A stretch of DNA of 46,562 nt from contig JAQWOT010000149.1 of NCBI GenBank assembly GCA_029245725.1, positions 1 through 46,562 on the forward strand, written 5' to 3'. Made by a program: the position numbers and the translations under genes. The notes beneath the pieces were generated by a model. That model made no database searches, had not been told where the DNA came from, and was given only the letters and a program-made list of their open reading frames with translations. The stretch's first letter is position 1. Each line of letters opens with the position of its first letter. The stretch is from SAR324 cluster bacterium (GTDB lineage: Bacteria; SAR324; NAC60-12). Shown in pieces: positions 30,092-39,714 of this stretch.

Positions 30092-32746
30092 CTACTTACT
30101 TTCCAATCGCTGCAGAGCATTGGCTGCAGCCTGCTTCATCTGCGGATCGCTTAGCTCTTTGCTGATCTTGCTGTAGATCGCCTTCGCGTCATTGATCCGC
30201 CCCAAGGCCTCGTAGCTAAGTCCCATTTGCTGCCAGGCAGTGAACTTTTGATTTTCGTTCAGCCCTTCCGCATGGAAGTAGGTTAATTGTAAGTAAGCAG
30301 CAACCGAACGTTCATGAGCTTTCAGCGCAGCCGCAGCTTCTCCACCTAACAATAGCGCTTCTCGCTGGATCAATGGATTTTCACTGCGACGCAACTGAGC
30401 AGACCAGCTCTCTGCTTGTTCCCAGGCTCCAGACGCACCGAGTCGTCCAAGATTCAAATATTCCTTGCCAATGCGGAGCATCCGCTGTTCACGCGCAGCC
30501 TGATCCGGCTCAAGATTATTGCGTAACCGATCCTCCCATAGTCGAATCAAGCCCTGCCGATGTGGAATTGTTCTCGCTGGTTCTCCCACGTACTCGTAGC
30601 GCTCAACCAACCAGTTCCGAATCTGCTCTTCTTGTTCTGGTTTGAAACGAGTATCCTTCAAATAGATTTCTGAACGCTCTGTAAAACGCACATCCTTCAA
30701 TCCGTAGTACAGGCGCAAAATCGCTAGTTTGGCCTCAATTCCCCAAGTAGGATTCAGAACATTTTGCAGTGAACGTTCATACGCTGGTAGGGCTTTCAGT
30801 GGGTCCTTGATCTGTTCGTATGCCTGACCACGCCGGAAGTATAACTCAGCCTGGTCCTTGGGATCTTTCATTTGAGGCAGCATCTGCAGGGCTTTTTCCA
30901 AAAAGCCTTCCCAAAGCTCCAACTCCCACAACAAGCTCAATTGTAGTTGCTGCATCTCCAGATCAAGGATTTCCGGATGGCTGAGCATAACTTGCAGGGC
31001 CTCTTCACGACGATTCAAATCCCGTAGCAACAGCACCTGCTCAATCAACAGATCCTTGTTCAAAGCCTCTGGATGAGCCTTAAGTAGCGCATCCAGTTCT
31101 CTCAACGCTTCTTCCGGAAGCTCCAAGCCACGATAAATCGCAACCAACCACTGCCAGGCACGAACCTGGTAGCGTGATGGTGGCTCCGCATCTACCAGAG
31201 TCTTTGCTTCTTTCTGGGCCTCCAGCCACTCTTCATTCAGCATGGACAAACCGATCCGGATCAGCGCTTTCTCTTCCTCACGGCCTGCCTCTACTGGAAC
31301 TTGCCGGAGTGTCAGGCCGATTGCACGACGCTGATTCTCATTACGCTTCGGATCCTCCAGAGCTGCTTGCCAAAAATAGCAATCACCTAACCGAGCTGAC
31401 TCCACAAACTCCTGAGTCACCCGCTGACAGCGTTCAAAACCTTGTTTTGTCTGACCTTCTGATAAATCCAGATATGCGAGACGATAAATAACCTCTCCCT
31501 TCAGAGAGGTCGCCAAATCAGGGGAAACCAGCAGTTCCTCAAAGATTTGACGGGCCTGTTCTGGCTTCCCCGTTTCCTGAAGCGCCTGGGCTCTTAATAA
31601 GCGAAATTCCTCTACCCTGGAGTGTAGCGCAAACTCTTCAACAGGCAGCGGAAAATCTAACAAAAACTCCCACCATCCCCAGGATGCGGCATGCCACATC
31701 GCTCGATAGGCTCCTTCACGACGTAGCTCTCGCTGGCGCAGAGAGCGCATGGTTCGACGAACTTCTTTCTCGTCTTGTTTTCGTAGTGCTAATTCCAGTT
31801 GGAGCAGAGACAATTGATCTTCATCGCGCAACCCTCGCTTTGCCAGGGCCTGAACTTCTTGACCTAAGGTTTCCCAATCCTGCTGCTGCCAGCGACACCA
31901 GGCTGACATGGCAGCAAGCTCCTCTATTTCAGAATAGTTATAGTATTTTTCAAAATACTCTTCCCGTAATCGTAGGACAGGATTACAGTTCGCCCGTTCG
32001 TACTGATAAGAGGCTTCCTCTGCAACAAAACGAACCAGATTTTGTGCGTTGCCAGGATCCTGACGCAGTTGTGTAAAAATTGCTGGGACCTGGGCGGGCT
32101 TCGTCTGGGCTGCACAGTAGAGTTCGATACGGGTCCCTTCCCGCAAGTACTCTCGACTAGCTTGTCCGACATCCCGCAATCGACCCAACCACACCTCACT
32201 CTCCGCACAATCTCCACGCCTTGCCATCAACCAGGTCAATGTTAGGTAAGCTGCAGATCTCAATCCGGGTACTTGTTCTGAGTCAGTTTGTAGCCAACCC
32301 TGCAGGTCATCTACAGCAGCCTTGAATTCTCCAAGCTGAGTTCTGGACAAGCCCAGCCAGAATCCTGATGGTTTAGCCCAACGACTGTTCATCTTCTTAT
32401 CGATGATTTCGTAGAACCGATCTCGTGCTAGTGCAAAGTCCCCATTCTGGAAACTCTCCAGTGTGGTCTCGAAGTATCGACCGATCTGATCGAAGAAGCT
32501 GACCTGCAAGGGCTCTCGACTGAGTGGATTGAAGTCGGGCAATGGGGGAAGAGAGACCGAACGACCCAGCTTGGGTGTGTTCGAAGAAAGATCTGGTTGG
32601 AAGGGAGCTATCTCGCCCAGCGGGAAAGACCCGTAAGGGGTCTGTACTTGATCTGAAGGAGTGGCCAAGGCGCTTAGAGTGGTCAAACAGAATCCACACC
32701 CTAGTATAGCTCCTTGGAGCCAGCGTACAAGAACTGCCATGTTCAT
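30092..32746 (-). CDS. Large periplasmic TPR-repeat protein
   Basis: This 884-residue protein has a signal peptide (residues 1-29, ending SALATP) and then almost only helical repeats of about 34 residues. Clear tetratricopeptide units are seen at LARDRFYEIIDKKMNSRW (near 105), ALRELDALLKAHPEALNKD (near 550) and QAELYFRRGQAYEQIKDPLKALPAYERSL (near 640-670), with more near 840. Such proteins serve as scaffolds in the periplasm for envelope assembly, motility or lipoprotein transport. No enzymatic motif is visible. The start overlaps the mnmH stop by four bases; a second ATG two codons in is possible. The place between mnmH and cmk gives no clue to its job. Confidence 0.75.
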   Translation of the reverse strand: MNMAVLVRWLQGAILGCGFCLTTLSALATPSDQVQTPYGSFPLGEIAPFQPDLSSNTPKLGRSVSLPPLPDFNPLSREPLQVSFFDQIGRYFETTLESFQNGDFALARDRFYEIIDKKMNSRWAKPSGFWLGLSRTQLGEFKAAVDDLQGWLQTDSEQVPGLRSAAYLTLTWLMARRGDCAESEVWLGRLRDVGQASREYLREGTRIELYCAAQTKPAQVPAIFTQLRQDPGNAQNLVRFVAEEASYQYERANCNPVLRLREEYFEKYYNYSEIEELAAMSAWCRWQQQDWETLGQEVQALAKRGLRDEDQLSLLQLELALRKQDEKEVRRTMRSLRQRELRREGAYRAMWHAASWGWWEFLLDFPLPVEEFALHSRVEEFRLLRAQALQETGKPEQARQIFEELLVSPDLATSLKGEVIYRLAYLDLSEGQTKQGFERCQRVTQEFVESARLGDCYFWQAALEDPKRNENQRRAIGLTLRQVPVEAGREEEKALIRIGLSMLNEEWLEAQKEAKTLVDAEPPSRYQVRAWQWLVAIYRGLELPEEALRELDALLKAHPEALNKDLLIEQVLLLRDLNRREEALQVMLSHPEILDLEMQQLQLSLLWELELWEGFLEKALQMLPQMKDPKDQAELYFRRGQAYEQIKDPLKALPAYERSLQNVLNPTWGIEAKLAILRLYYGLKDVRFTERSEIYLKDTRFKPEQEEQIRNWLVERYEYVGEPARTIPHRQGLIRLWEDRLRNNLEPDQAAREQRMLRIGKEYLNLGRLGASGAWEQAESWSAQLRRSENPLIQREALLLGGEAAAALKAHERSVAAYLQLTYFHAEGLNENQKFTAWQQMGLSYEALGRINDAKAIYSKISKELSDPQMKQAAANALQRLESK

Positions 32747-35090: not shown

Positions 35091-36032
35091 ATGTCTCAAC
35101 GTGTTTTAGTCACTGGTGGCGCGGGTTTTCTCGGCTCCTTCCTCTGTGAGCAACTAATCCAGCAGGGCCATGACGTGCTGGCTCTGGACAATCTTTTCAC
35201 TGGCAACAAGCGCAATATCGCTCATCTGCTGGACCATCGGAACTTCGAATTCATTCGCCATGACGTGGTTGAACCAATTCTGTTGGAAGTCGATTGGATC
35301 TTCAACCTAGCCTGCCCAGCCTCACCTGTACATTACCAGTACAATCCAGTGAAAACCACCAAGACAAGCATTCTCGGTGCGATCAACATGCTCGGACTGG
35401 CAAAGCGAGTCCAGGCGCGTATCCTACAGGCGTCCACCTCTGAGATTTATGGAGATCCAGAGGTCCATCCTCAAACCGAAGACTACTGGGGATCTGTCAA
35501 TCCTATTGGTCCCCGCAGTTGCTACGACGAAGGCAAACGAGTCGCTGAAACCCTAATGAGTGACTATCGTCGTCAAAATGGAGTAGATACTCGGATCATT
35601 CGAATCTTTAACACCTACGGCCCTCGCATGCATCCGGAAGACGGGCGAGTGGTCAGTAACTTTATAGTTGCAGCCTTGTGCAACAAACCGCTGGTGCTCT
35701 ACAGTGATGGACAGCAGACTCGCTCCTTCTGCTATGTCAGTGACCTGATTGAAGGAATCCTACGAATGATGCAGCAGGAGAACTGTCCCGGACCCATCAA
35801 TCTGGGGAATCCTGGAGAATTCACGATTCGGGAGTTGGCTGAACAAGTCATGGAATTGACCAATTCTCGCTCCCAAATTACTTATCAGCCTGCCCGTGAA
35901 GATGATCCTGGTCGCCGCCGACCAGACATTCGACTAGCCAAGGATCAACTTGGCTGGGAACCCACGGTGCCTCTGAAGGAAGGTCTCCGTCACACGATTC
36001 ACTACTTTGACGAGCTGCTTCGCAATTCCTGA
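35091..36032 (+). CDS. uxs: UDP-glucuronate decarboxylase (UDP-xylose synthase)
   Basis: This enzyme oxidises and decarboxylates UDP-glucuronate to UDP-xylose with bound NAD+. The extended SDR fold opens with [12 protein letters not shown]. The family motif [22 protein letters not shown] at 72-93 marks UXS proper. Catalytic residues lie in [10 protein letters not shown] and Y145-x3-K149 (SCYDEGKR). The C terminus [23 protein letters not shown] binds the nucleotide sugar. Its 313 residues match bacterial UXS. It likely feeds pentose into surface glycans; no glycosyltransferases are nearby. The next gene starts 10 bases later. Confidence 0.93.
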
Positions 36033-36042
36033 TGGATCTCGC

Positions 36043-38403
36043 ATGCCGCCCTCTCGTCTACTGATCGCCCTTGCCTTACTGTTTGGACTGATCCTGCCTC
36101 CGCTTGCTCTGGGGAATCAGGATTTTCTACAACTGCGGCAGGAGATCCGCTCCGAGCGTCCTGTGCGTCAATTGGCAATCAGTGCCGACGAAGCAATCCT
36201 TGCCATGGGAATGCAAGATGGTGATGATACTGTTGTAGAATTCCGTGACCGACGTAGCGGTCGGATTCTAGGCAACCTGCGCTCTGCTAGCAATGAGTTA
36301 ACTCATCTCAGCTTTCATCCGACTCGACGACAACTGTTCGTAGGTGGAGATAAGCGACTCGAACTCTGGCAAGTCGATGATCTGCCTGGTCGTGATGCAG
36401 AATTGCCTGCCTTGCAACAACGCATTTGGGAACGAACTGTTCAGCAACCGGTAGGACAGGCCGACTTTAGCCAACAGAAAGATCTGCTGCGCTGGAGTGA
36501 GGGACAGCAACTCTACGAACTAGATGCACAACCACCCTACTCCTCGCGCTTACTCTGGACAGGTGAAAAGACCGACCAACCTCTAAAGCACTTTGCTTTC
36601 AGCCCCAACGAGCAACGCATTGCAGTTAGCCATGCCAATCAAACTGGAATTCGTTTGGTAGATTCTCAGCGCCAACAGGTATTGCCACCGCTTGATTACC
36701 ATTTGTTGCCTCCAGTGGATTTCCACTTCTCAACAGACCAACAACTAGTTTCCATCGACGAAGAGCGTAACCTGCTCTGGGGTAATTCGGAGTCCCGCCT
36801 GCAAGAGCATCGTCCTGAATTGGAACTTTCCAACCAGTCCAAGCCAGAGCGATTGCTACCGCTACCAGGTGACAAACTAGCGGTCATCTCAACAGAGGGA
36901 GACACTACCAAGGCGCACATCTTTAATCGAGAGGGCGCAGAACAACAACAATTGCTGCTTTACGGCGCTGGCAGCATTGCAAGGAGTCCCACCGGAGCCT
37001 ACCTGGCCAGTGCGGATTATGACAGCGTTCAATTGTTTGAGACCAAGGAACACCAGAGCCCGGAAGAATACATCCATCAATTGCAGGATCGTGGCGCCAA
37101 CGAAACCGCTCGACGCTATCGCAACCAACTAGACACTCCGGTTGCCCTAGCAACTTCAAAAGCAGCTGAAACCAGCACGGGACCATCTTCGCTTGAATTG
37201 CAAGTGGAGCAGTTGCGCAATGCGGAACGGGAAAAGGATTGGCTGCGAGCTGAAAGACTGCTGGGGGAAATCCTACGTATCGACCCTCAAAATGCAGAAG
37301 CCCTCGCCGTGCGGGAAAGGATGCAGCAACAAGAGCAGGAAATTCAACTTGGTAAGGGAGAGCAGCTACTCAAAAAAGGAGAGTACGATGCTGCCATTTC
37401 CCAATTCAAGCGGGTCCCCAAGGACAGTCCACTCTATACGGAAGCACGACGCCAACTGGCTCTGGCCGAACAACAAATCCGAGTACAGTTGCGGGTTCAG
37501 AGTGCTGAGCAGGAAATGCGTTCCCAAAACTGGGAAGGTGCTCGAACTTTTCTGCTGATGGCGCTTGAACAAGATCCAAACAACTCACAAGTTCAGTCAC
37601 TACTCGAAGAAATTGAGGCCAAGCAAACCAACGCACGCCTGGTTCTGCTGGTAGTCCTGCTGATGCTGTTGCTTGCTGGAGGATTGCTAGGCTGGTTTGG
37701 TTGGAAATACAGGGAACGCATCGCAGACTGGATGTCTCAGGAAGATCCACGACAGCAAGCTCGTGCACGAGCCTATGCAGAAGCACAAGCTGCTGCGCAA
37801 GCGGAAGAACAACGCAAGGCTGCCGAACAACAAGCACTGGATGAGCAACACTTTCAGGAGACCCTACGGAAGACCCGAGAGTTGTTGCGGCTGGCGCAGC
37901 GCAAGGATACAGAACGCCAGCACGCTATGCGGCTGGTGGACTTTGAAGCTGAGATCAATCTGATCGAACGACAGGCACTGGAAAAACAGGCTCCCTTGCG
38001 ACAACTTGTGGGCAAACTACTGTTCATTCAGCAAACCCTGCGCAGCCTGCGCTTCTACGTGCGGGCCCGCACAAGCCAGCGTGCAGAAGAGCAACAACAA
38101 CGCCGGCAACAACAATCAAAGCAACAGGAACGGCAACAGCCTGGTTCTTCACGAACCTCTGCCGTCGGACAAAATTATTACGAACTCCTGGGCATTTCTC
38201 CGAAGGCAACGGCCAGTGAAATTCGGAAGGCTTATCATGAGAAGCTGAAGGAATACCATCCAGACCGACATCAAAATGCTGAGTTCGATTGGATCCGCCA
38301 GCAAGCCGAGTCCATGACTCGACTGCTTGGTGAAGCCTATGAAGTGCTGGTTCACGAAGAACAACGCAAGCGTTACGATCAGCAACAACAGGCACGCTCA
38401 TGA
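36043..38403 (+). CDS. Transmembrane J-domain protein with periplasmic beta-propeller and TPR
   Basis: The 786-residue protein has four parts. A signal segment (LLIALALLFGLILPPLALG) leads into residues 30-345, which look like a WD40-type propeller (repeats such as LAISADEAILAMGMQDG, LSFHPTRRQLFVGGDKRLELW and FAFSPNEQRIAVS). Residues 395-525 hold TPR-like helices. A single helix at 529-553 crosses the membrane. Then come a Gln/Glu/Arg-rich coiled coil and a C-terminal J domain (NYYELLGISPKATASEIRKAYHEKL, HPD at 739-741). The J domain should stimulate a cytoplasmic Hsp70 (DnaK or HscA). The ATG at 36043 fits the signal peptide; the frame opens at a TTG at 36007. I know no named protein with this layout. 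Confidence 0.8.
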   Translation: MPPSRLLIALALLFGLILPPLALGNQDFLQLRQEIRSERPVRQLAISADEAILAMGMQDGDDTVVEFRDRRSGRILGNLRSASNELTHLSFHPTRRQLFVGGDKRLELWQVDDLPGRDAELPALQQRIWERTVQQPVGQADFSQQKDLLRWSEGQQLYELDAQPPYSSRLLWTGEKTDQPLKHFAFSPNEQRIAVSHANQTGIRLVDSQRQQVLPPLDYHLLPPVDFHFSTDQQLVSIDEERNLLWGNSESRLQEHRPELELSNQSKPERLLPLPGDKLAVISTEGDTTKAHIFNREGAEQQQLLLYGAGSIARSPTGAYLASADYDSVQLFETKEHQSPEEYIHQLQDRGANETARRYRNQLDTPVALATSKAAETSTGPSSLELQVEQLRNAEREKDWLRAERLLGEILRIDPQNAEALAVRERMQQQEQEIQLGKGEQLLKKGEYDAAISQFKRVPKDSPLYTEARRQLALAEQQIRVQLRVQSAEQEMRSQNWEGARTFLLMALEQDPNNSQVQSLLEEIEAKQTNARLVLLVVLLMLLLAGGLLGWFGWKYRERIADWMSQEDPRQQARARAYAEAQAAAQAEEQRKAAEQQALDEQHFQETLRKTRELLRLAQRKDTERQHAMRLVDFEAEINLIERQALEKQAPLRQLVGKLLFIQQTLRSLRFYVRARTSQRAEEQQQRRQQQSKQQERQQPGSSRTSAVGQNYYELLGISPKATASEIRKAYHEKLKEYHPDRHQNAEFDWIRQQAESMTRLLGEAYEVLVHEEQRKRYDQQQQARS

Positions 38404-38582
38404 TTGAACAATTCTTCGATTGCCCCTATTGTTGGCAACGTATCTCCATCTTGCTGGATCCTTCGGAAGTAGAGTTGGACACAATCGAAGACTGTGAGGT
38501 CTGCTGTCGACCGATCCGCTTCAAAGTTCATCTCAATCTCGAGGGCCAGGTCCTCGATTTCTCTGTTCTCCCTCCGCACTGA
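38400..38582 (+). CDS. CPXCG-motif cysteine-rich protein
   Basis: This 60-residue protein belongs to the CPXCG cysteine-rich family of unknown function. It has FFDCPYCWQRI at the start and EDCEVCCRPIRF in the middle; the Cys pairs make a likely zinc ribbon. The conserved Gly after the second Cys is Trp here. Its start overlaps the stop of the J-domain gene (ATGA), so it is made together with that protein. Confidence 0.85.
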   Translation: MIEQFFDCPYCWQRISILLDPSEVELDTIEDCEVCCRPIRFKVHLNLEGQVLDFSVLPPH

Positions 38583-38589
38583 GACAACA

Positions 38590-38847
38590 ATGCAACGAAT
38601 TTGGGCCATCGTTTACCTGCTCTTTCAGAATAACTATGTACGCATTAGTGCCGTCCTTGGTGCAGCAGCCGGCTATTGGGGATATTCATGGATCCCAGGA
38701 GGAGACCCAGTTCTGACTCCTGTAGTTGGGGCCTTTCTTGGCTGGGGAATTGGAGTCTACTGGAGTGAAATCTTTCCAGCACTGCAAGCCCCTCGCTCCC
38801 GATCTAAGCCAAGGTTTCAGGTTCATCAGGGCGGTAAGCGACGCTGA
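38590..38847 (+). CDS. Small membrane protein, unknown
   Basis: This 85-residue protein has a first helix near residues 5-30 (VYLLFQNNYVRISAVLGAAAGYWGY) and a glycine-rich second helix near 40-62 (DPVLTPVVGAFLGWGIGVYW), followed by a basic tail PRSRSKPRFQVHQGGKRR that should lie in the cytoplasm. The ATG at 38590 is seven bases after the previous stop. The frame is open upstream to 38494 inside the CPXCG gene, but the chosen start fits the spacing. I do not recognise a family; location in a tight run suggests a part in the same process as its neighbours. Confidence 0.65.
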   Translation: MQRIWAIVYLLFQNNYVRISAVLGAAAGYWGYSWIPGGDPVLTPVVGAFLGWGIGVYWSEIFPALQAPRSRSKPRFQVHQGGKRR

Positions 38848-38853
38848 GGGGGT

Positions 38854-39714
38854 GTGAACGAATCAGGTCTCGGCAAGTACGTTGCGCCCACGGCTCTAGG
38901 AGCTGCCTACGCCCTGTCACGGATGGGGCTACTGCTTTTATTTTTGCCGGAACAAGCTGCTCTCTTCGATTTCAACCTGCTCTTTCTCGCAGGGGTGCTG
39001 CTCGGCTTCACCCTGCGTCCTATTGTCAAACCAATCTTCTGGACTCGTAGCGTTGGTACCGTAGTCATCCTGCTACTGTTATTAGGAATTGGACCAACTG
39101 GAAAGTTGCTGGAGGGAATGGTCCTGGGCACTCCAATGGATGAGGTGGCGCAAGGGCTCTTGTTAGGAGAATTTGGTGCTGCCCTGTTGGTAGCACTGGT
39201 CGCTCCCTGGCTGCTACCTCCCACACAACGCTTGCTCGACTGGAATCGGCTGGGTCGCAGACTGCGTCAAGGAGTCCTTGATCGGCAACGTCTGCTCGAA
39301 ATGCTATGGCTGGGAGTTGTCTACGTTCTGCTCTTCCTGGGTACACAAGCACTGATTCAGGCCAACTGGGAGTTGTCTTCCTGGTGGACCCAACTGCAGA
39401 ACTTCCTGCAACTTCCTCCGACCTCCATCGAAGCCAAGCTGGTCTTCCTGCTGCTGAGAGGCTGGTTGTTGCTGCTGGTGCTGCTGCCTGTCTGCCTGAC
39501 CCTGACCCGTCAACCGCTGGAACTCTGGATTGTGCTCACCTCACTCCTCTTTGTTGTGGCTGAATTCACCCCCGCCTTTGTCTACTTCCAACAAGTTCCA
39601 CCAACCCTTCTGTTTGACCAGGTCAGTGGCGGTTTGATTCGTCAGGCGATTTTCGCTGCACTGATTGCCTGGCGCTGGCACTTGGAACCTCTATCTGAAG
39701 AAATCCCAAAGTAA
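38854..39714 (+). CDS. Polytopic membrane protein, unknown
   Basis: This 286-residue protein has seven or eight predicted membrane helices, rich in Leu, for example ALSRMGLLLLFLPEQA, LLFLAGVLLGF, VVILLLLLGIG, AALLVALVAPWLLP, VVYVLLFLGTQ, LLLRGWLLLLVLLPVCL and LWIVLTSLLFVVAEF. The loops are short and basic. The frame starts with a GTG at 38854, six bases after the preceding gene, with GGGGGT immediately before it; the ribosome site is too close, so a start at the ATG 38923 remains possible. No transport or enzyme signature is seen. It closes the run that starts with UXS. Confidence 0.65.
   Translation: MNESGLGKYVAPTALGAAYALSRMGLLLLFLPEQAALFDFNLLFLAGVLLGFTLRPIVKPIFWTRSVGTVVILLLLLGIGPTGKLLEGMVLGTPMDEVAQGLLLGEFGAALLVALVAPWLLPPTQRLLDWNRLGRRLRQGVLDRQRLLEMLWLGVVYVLLFLGTQALIQANWELSSWWTQLQNFLQLPPTSIEAKLVFLLLRGWLLLLVLLPVCLTLTRQPLELWIVLTSLLFVVAEFTPAFVYFQQVPPTLLFDQVSGGLIRQAIFAALIAWRWHLEPLSEEIPK

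Follow-up and report, generated by a model that had tools for sequence, protein, structure and literature searches.

A SAR324 J-domain protein predicted to cross the membrane once, with a periplasmic propeller and a cytoplasmic J domain

Domain architecture of the J-protein

Contig JAQWOT010000149.1 of a SAR324 cluster bacterium (GenBank assembly GCA_029245725.1), analysed here over its whole length of 46,562 nucleotides and referred to as the window, encodes a membrane-spanning J-domain protein of 786 amino acids, hereafter the J-protein. The J-protein carries an apparently exported WD40-type beta-propeller and TPR helices on one side of a single membrane helix, and a J domain on the other. 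We consider it probable that this protein docks on an envelope partner outside and recruits the Hsp70 DnaK inside. Such an architecture could let envelope events call Hsp70 to the membrane. The combination of an exported propeller and a cytoplasmic J domain in one protein was seen in no other lineage sampled. Membrane-anchored J-proteins are known in bacteria, such as DjlA and DjlB/C, and what steers them to their clients is mostly obscure. A large folded part across the membrane from a J domain with an intact essential motif makes envelope-directed Hsp70 action directly testable.

The gene was delimited by its open reading frame (ORF), its translation, Pfam matches and an alignment of homologues. 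The ORF occupies positions 36043 to 38403 of the forward strand, starts with ATG and encodes 786 residues followed by a stop codon. An in-frame TTG at 36007 falls within the upstream gene, and the ATG at 36043 lies 10 nt past the upstream stop codon. Read from the N-terminus, a signal sequence and the propeller come first; the TPR helices, the single membrane helix and a charged helical segment follow, and the C-terminal part is a J domain bearing an HPD motif. This order, claimed in the original prediction from the DNA letters and their translated reading frames, is borne out by Pfam, by profile matches to PDB chains, by a model of the propeller alone and by hydropathy. Conservation was evaluated in a set of 28 homologous proteins (alignment and profile A1), and the conserved architecture is real. 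The hydrophobic signal sequence (residues 1-24, 36043..36114, forward strand, like all features of the protein) was located by hydropathy and carries a signal peptidase I-like site with possible cleavage between ALALG and NQ, placed by eye and not by a prediction program.

The putative periplasmic propeller covers residues about 30-345 (36130..37077). WD40-type families of Pfam match residues 31-242, with the lone PF00400 match slightly below its cut-off. Compared with PDB, profile A1 matches the WD-40 chain 2ymu over its positions 178-338 (E 8.6e-34), while PkwA is matched at the opposite end of the propeller domain, over positions 33-116 (E 6.4e-23). An AlphaFold 2 (AF2) model of residues 26-352 alone (327 aa) reached moderate confidence, with a predicted local distance difference test (pLDDT) of 56 and a predicted template modelling score (pTM) of 0.52; these figures belong to the best of five models, the remaining four scoring 30-39. 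The top solved structural match of this model is the WD40 domain of PkwA (5yzv, E 1.9e-9, template modelling score (TM) 0.56/0.62), which is, however, borne by a Ser/Thr kinase. The structure search returned 1012 matches at E <= 0.001, the top ones being propeller chains, for example Pwp2, G-beta, WDR5 and YncE. Sequence profiles and domain-only model agree, and we take the propeller fold as established in the residues for which the original prediction had proposed it. The blade count is probably seven, judging from the domain length; the number is left unfixed because the propeller model is only moderately confident. The AF2 model of all 786 residues, proposed earlier as a check, was uninformative (pLDDT 49, from an input alignment of three near-identical sequences).

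The TPR helices, also predicted to be periplasmic, span residues about 383-523 (37189..37611). Pfam places TPR_19 above its cut-off at residues 442-523 (E 5e-7), and residues 383-435 are helical in the low-confidence full-length model. On the other side of the membrane helix, a helical segment at residues 605-672 (37855..38058), predicted to be cytoplasmic, has a mean conservation of 0.44 in A1, above the 0.26 and 0.20 of the flanking linkers.

Distribution and selection

Homologues were surveyed with a C-terminal profile, A2. Thirty genomes of the SAR324 class gave matches at 8.5e-44 or better, and one fragment matched at 9.5e-39; the J-protein is thus present in 31 of the 52 class genomes and in 24 of the 26 genera. 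No homologue was found in 331 genomes of 240 other families, where the best A2 match (1e-25) is a plain J-protein, nor at 1e-26 among 195 genomes of another phylum. Long J-domain ORFs from outside the class were unlike the J-protein on inspection, and viral relatives have generic J domains only. The family is restricted to SAR324 as far as sampled, a survey that is wide yet thin against the 97,973 species of the collection, so that rare relatives may exist. Within the class the family is old. The search for the same domain order across genomes, suggested earlier, was positive inside the class and negative in the other genomes sampled.

Compared with a relative of 97% identity, the ratio of non-synonymous to synonymous substitution rates (dN/dS) is 0.049 for residues 1-680, 0.028 for the propeller and 0.013 for the J domain. 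The protein is under purifying selection along its whole length, and the ORF is not a product of chance.

Membrane topology

The membrane helix occupies residues 530-553 (37630..37701), as located by hydropathy, which reaches 2.75 at about residues 533-551, and by comparison of homologues. Nearly all N-terminally complete homologues have a hydrophobic N-terminal stretch and one further strong hydrophobic helix ahead of the J domain. The 15 residues past the membrane helix carry a higher net charge than the 15 before it in 22 of the 28 homologues, with four ties (Wilcoxon p 5.7e-5, a value that overstates the significance because related rows are not independent). Mean charge per 100 residues is -1.0 in the outer part and +4.4 in the inner part across the same proteins.

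The propeller and TPR part most likely lies outside, across the inner membrane from a J domain facing the cytoplasm, which would make the J-protein a single-pass inner-membrane protein. This orientation, well supported though drawn from sequence, follows from the hydrophobic N-terminus and the one inner helix, the charge bias, and the two Hsp70s of the genome, neither of which has a signal peptide. The same three lines of evidence agree with the cytoplasmic J domain of the original prediction and not with a periplasmic one. A reversed topology that makes the J domain periplasmic would draw on the present orientation being read from sequence and on some K/R in the membrane-proximal outer segment of several homologues. 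It conflicts with the hydrophobic N-terminus, inner helix and charge bias, and with the lack of an exported Hsp70 in the genome, and is extremely improbable.

Residues 26-530 and their homologous parts are nearly free of cysteine, with one Cys in about 14,000 residues of the 28 proteins, compared with 0.86% in ORFs of the same loci. Such scarcity would suit a periplasmic location, for which it is weak evidence, as an exported TPR neighbour has 0.9%.

J domain and candidate Hsp70 partners

The predicted cytoplasmic J domain comprises residues 709-781 (38167..38385), as delimited by PF00226 and by alignment to DnaJ. PF00226 matches residues 711-779 above its cut-off (E 6.7e-17) and is found in all 28 homologues. 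The HPD motif (residues 739-741, 38257..38265), described as intact in the original prediction, is invariant in 28 of 28 proteins, as is the following H743. The Pfam scan of the J-protein detected none of the further DnaJ domains (the glycine/phenylalanine-rich G/F region, zinc finger or client-binding domains). A J domain with HPD and without other DnaJ domains defines class C, in which the J-protein falls; its architecture is a variant of the membrane-anchored class C J-proteins. Members of the class also stimulate an Hsp70 ATPase through HPD, and the J-protein keeps part of the residues that contact DnaK.

The residues of DnaJ that contact DnaK are R22, K26, R27, K48, K51 and the HPD motif (PMC8215388). 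The equivalent of R22 is K or R in 28/28 homologues and that of K48 in 25/28. Relative to DnaJ there is a 6-residue insertion, around which W750 is invariant and F748 near-invariant. The J domain looks usable by DnaK, though non-canonical.

The source genome has two Hsp70s, namely DnaK (start MGKVIGIDLG), which adjoins DnaJ, and HscA, which adjoins HscB within the window. No export signal or signal peptide was found in either, which would leave a J domain in the periplasm without a partner, and a dedicated third Hsp70 is absent from this genome. DnaK as the partner of the J domain is well supported, although it is we who infer it from gene content and sequence. Service to HscA, or to iron-sulphur assembly, is very unlikely. 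HscA is one of just two genomic Hsp70s and is encoded on the same contig, and the altered counterparts of DnaJ K26 and R27, described below, would fit a partner other than DnaK; against this, HscA has its own HscB adjoining it, and it lies about 19 kb from the J-protein gene in the window, without an operon link. In the five-contig assembly of another genome, the DnaK frame (G025:C2:455929-457703) contains many stop codons, probably owing to an assembly error.

Proposed function

In the mechanism that we favour, the signal sequence would export the N-terminal ~505 residues and so place the WD40-type propeller and then the TPR helices in the periplasm. The membrane would be crossed by residues 530-553, with the linkers, the conserved helical segment and the J domain remaining on the cytoplasmic side. 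The propeller and TPR part would dock on an envelope partner and in this way set the location of the protein; there, the J domain would recruit DnaK and trigger its ATPase on clients at the inner face. In this it would resemble DjlA, through which DnaK reaches a signalling complex at the membrane. What the sequences show directly is the set of domains, the order in which they occur, how well they are kept and the bias in charge; that the periplasmic part binds an envelope partner is our inference.

Several observations weigh against this mechanism. Among the 28 homologues, the position of DnaJ K26 is mostly H, that of R27 is Q/E/R/K and that of K51 is lost or variable, and these changed contacts depart from a canonical fit to DnaK. 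Across the class the propeller is conserved only moderately, and no pocket for a ligand was identified in it. No neighbouring gene is conserved class-wide. Finally, loss of the gene from the whole of genus g7 leaves the flanking genes unchanged, and such a deletion with intact flanks argues that the function served is dispensable.

The J-protein could also be a true receptor, in which a ligand or a damaged envelope component on the propeller or TPR part shifts the conformation or oligomeric state and so gates the recruitment of DnaK. Folded domains on either side of one helix form a receptor-like layout, and the conserved helical segment 605-672 between membrane and J domain could relay a change. 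However, the poorly conserved linkers flanking this segment favour a flexible tether over gating, no conserved regulator adjoins the gene, and both ligand and response are hypothetical. We regard the receptor as plausible but unlikely, and equally so what it would imply, trans-envelope signalling in a single polypeptide, with neither phosphotransfer nor proteolysis, with chaperone recruitment as its output, and ancestral to SAR324.

A further reading, possible yet doubtful, casts the J-protein as a structural tether for an envelope machine or as a factor in its assembly, in which case the J domain would only help DnaK to assemble or dismantle the cytoplasmic subunits of the machine. WD40 and TPR modules are common scaffolds, and the gene is kept in most, not all, of the class. 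ZipN offers a precedent, as a single-pass J-type protein that tethers a machine to the membrane (PMC6391411). Markers of the flagellum, MreB and secretins are nonetheless present regardless of the gene, and a link to any of these was rejected. The docking, gating and assembly-factor readings overlap.

Comparison with known systems

Pfam, NCBIfam, PHROGs and the literature searched gave no named family or system of this domain order, although an earlier mention is possible; the original prediction, too, had matched none. DjlA, an E. coli membrane co-chaperone of DnaK, is the best mechanistic precedent by analogy. Activation of Rcs by DjlA depends on the membrane helix and J domain of the protein and on DnaK/GrpE; its J domain loosens the IgaA-RcsD interaction, and DjlA reportedly lacks a specific substrate-binding domain (PMC11709261). 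The J-protein matches the DjlA model weakly and in the J region only (NF006948, E 4.5e-7), and its 29.8 bits fall short of the curated cut-off of 162 bits. The periplasmic stretch of DjlA is only short, and the protein also contains a TerB-like domain (PMC11709261), whereas the SAR324 protein has ~505 residues outside (propeller and TPR) and gives no Pfam match to such a domain in the part that links the helix to the J domain.

DjlB and DjlC, partners of HscC, are likewise membrane-anchored J-proteins. They are, however, tail-anchored with no exported domain described (PMC8215388), and the SAR324 genome has DnaK and HscA only. ZipN/Ftn2/ARC6, of cyanobacterial and plastid division, resemble the J-protein in their ~800 aa, one membrane helix and J-type domain inside, but their J-like domain is N-terminal, its use of Hsp70 is doubted and no propeller is described (PMC6391411); the reversed order in the J-protein sets it apart from this family, in which the J-like domain comes first and the non-J end lies past the membrane helix. 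Soluble proteins of other bacterial phyla (loci L103, L104, L111 and L112) are likewise long and combine a J domain with TPR-like helices; they also carry an N-terminal domain. Their J domain is internal, and they have neither the signal sequence nor the single helix and C-terminal J layout.

Gene neighbourhood and loss

The upstream neighbour (35091..36032, forward strand) encodes a UXS-like sugar-nucleotide epimerase/decarboxylase, identified by Pfam, curated models and locus comparison. Within family f1 of the class, most of the genera seen retain RecA (divergent), UXS and the J-protein in this order. Downstream come either a CCA/polyA-polymerase-like gene, SmpB and DprA, or a PilZ gene with SmpB. 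In families f2 and f3, a TrmB-like methyltransferase gene precedes the J-protein and YicC follows it, guanylate kinase being the next gene in several genomes of f2. A link to UXS and UDP-sugars, operon-like in f1, was rejected on account of these f2/f3 flanks; as the neighbour is replaced, gene context gives no function.

The CPXCG zinc-ribbon gene (38400..38582, forward strand; Pfam, class search) overlaps the J-protein stop codon by 4 nt. The original prediction took it and the two small membrane proteins that follow (38584-38847 and 38854-39714) as possible parts of the same apparatus, and proposed a conserved neighbourhood with CPXCG as a check. This idea did not hold across the class: CPXCG adjoins the J-protein solely in the genus of the window (4 of 6 genomes), the two membrane proteins were seen beside it in that genus only, and other neighbours are found elsewhere. 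Further CPXCG matches in the class amount to two weak ones in g7, the genus without the J-protein, and one below the cut-off in G049. The two membrane proteins have no above-cut-off Pfam family and no PHROG match.

No J-protein was found in the 17 genomes of genus g7; at four of its loci UXS is followed directly by the CCA-type gene, SmpB and DprA, which marks a clean deletion. SAR324 is an uncultured lineage abundant in the ocean, and the genus that has dropped this trait provides a natural knock-out for comparison. The J-protein is also missing in G002, G003, G014 and G044, each less than 90% complete.

In four f1 genomes a PilZ-domain gene, whose product may bind cyclic di-GMP, adjoins or lies near the J-protein (L075:11806-12258, L076:7503-7832, L077:10342-10701 and L078:10563-10940). 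Most J-protein-bearing f1 genera have two MreB genes (G000:C186:28850-29836 and G000:C151:5678-6664 in one genome) and g7 has one; a link to the second MreB was discarded, since a single copy accompanies the J-protein in G012 and in most of f3. At 30092-32746, the window also encodes a TPR protein of 884 residues whose N-terminus is hydrophobic; it stays next to MnmH-RecA in several genera of f1, with an identity of only 20-25%.
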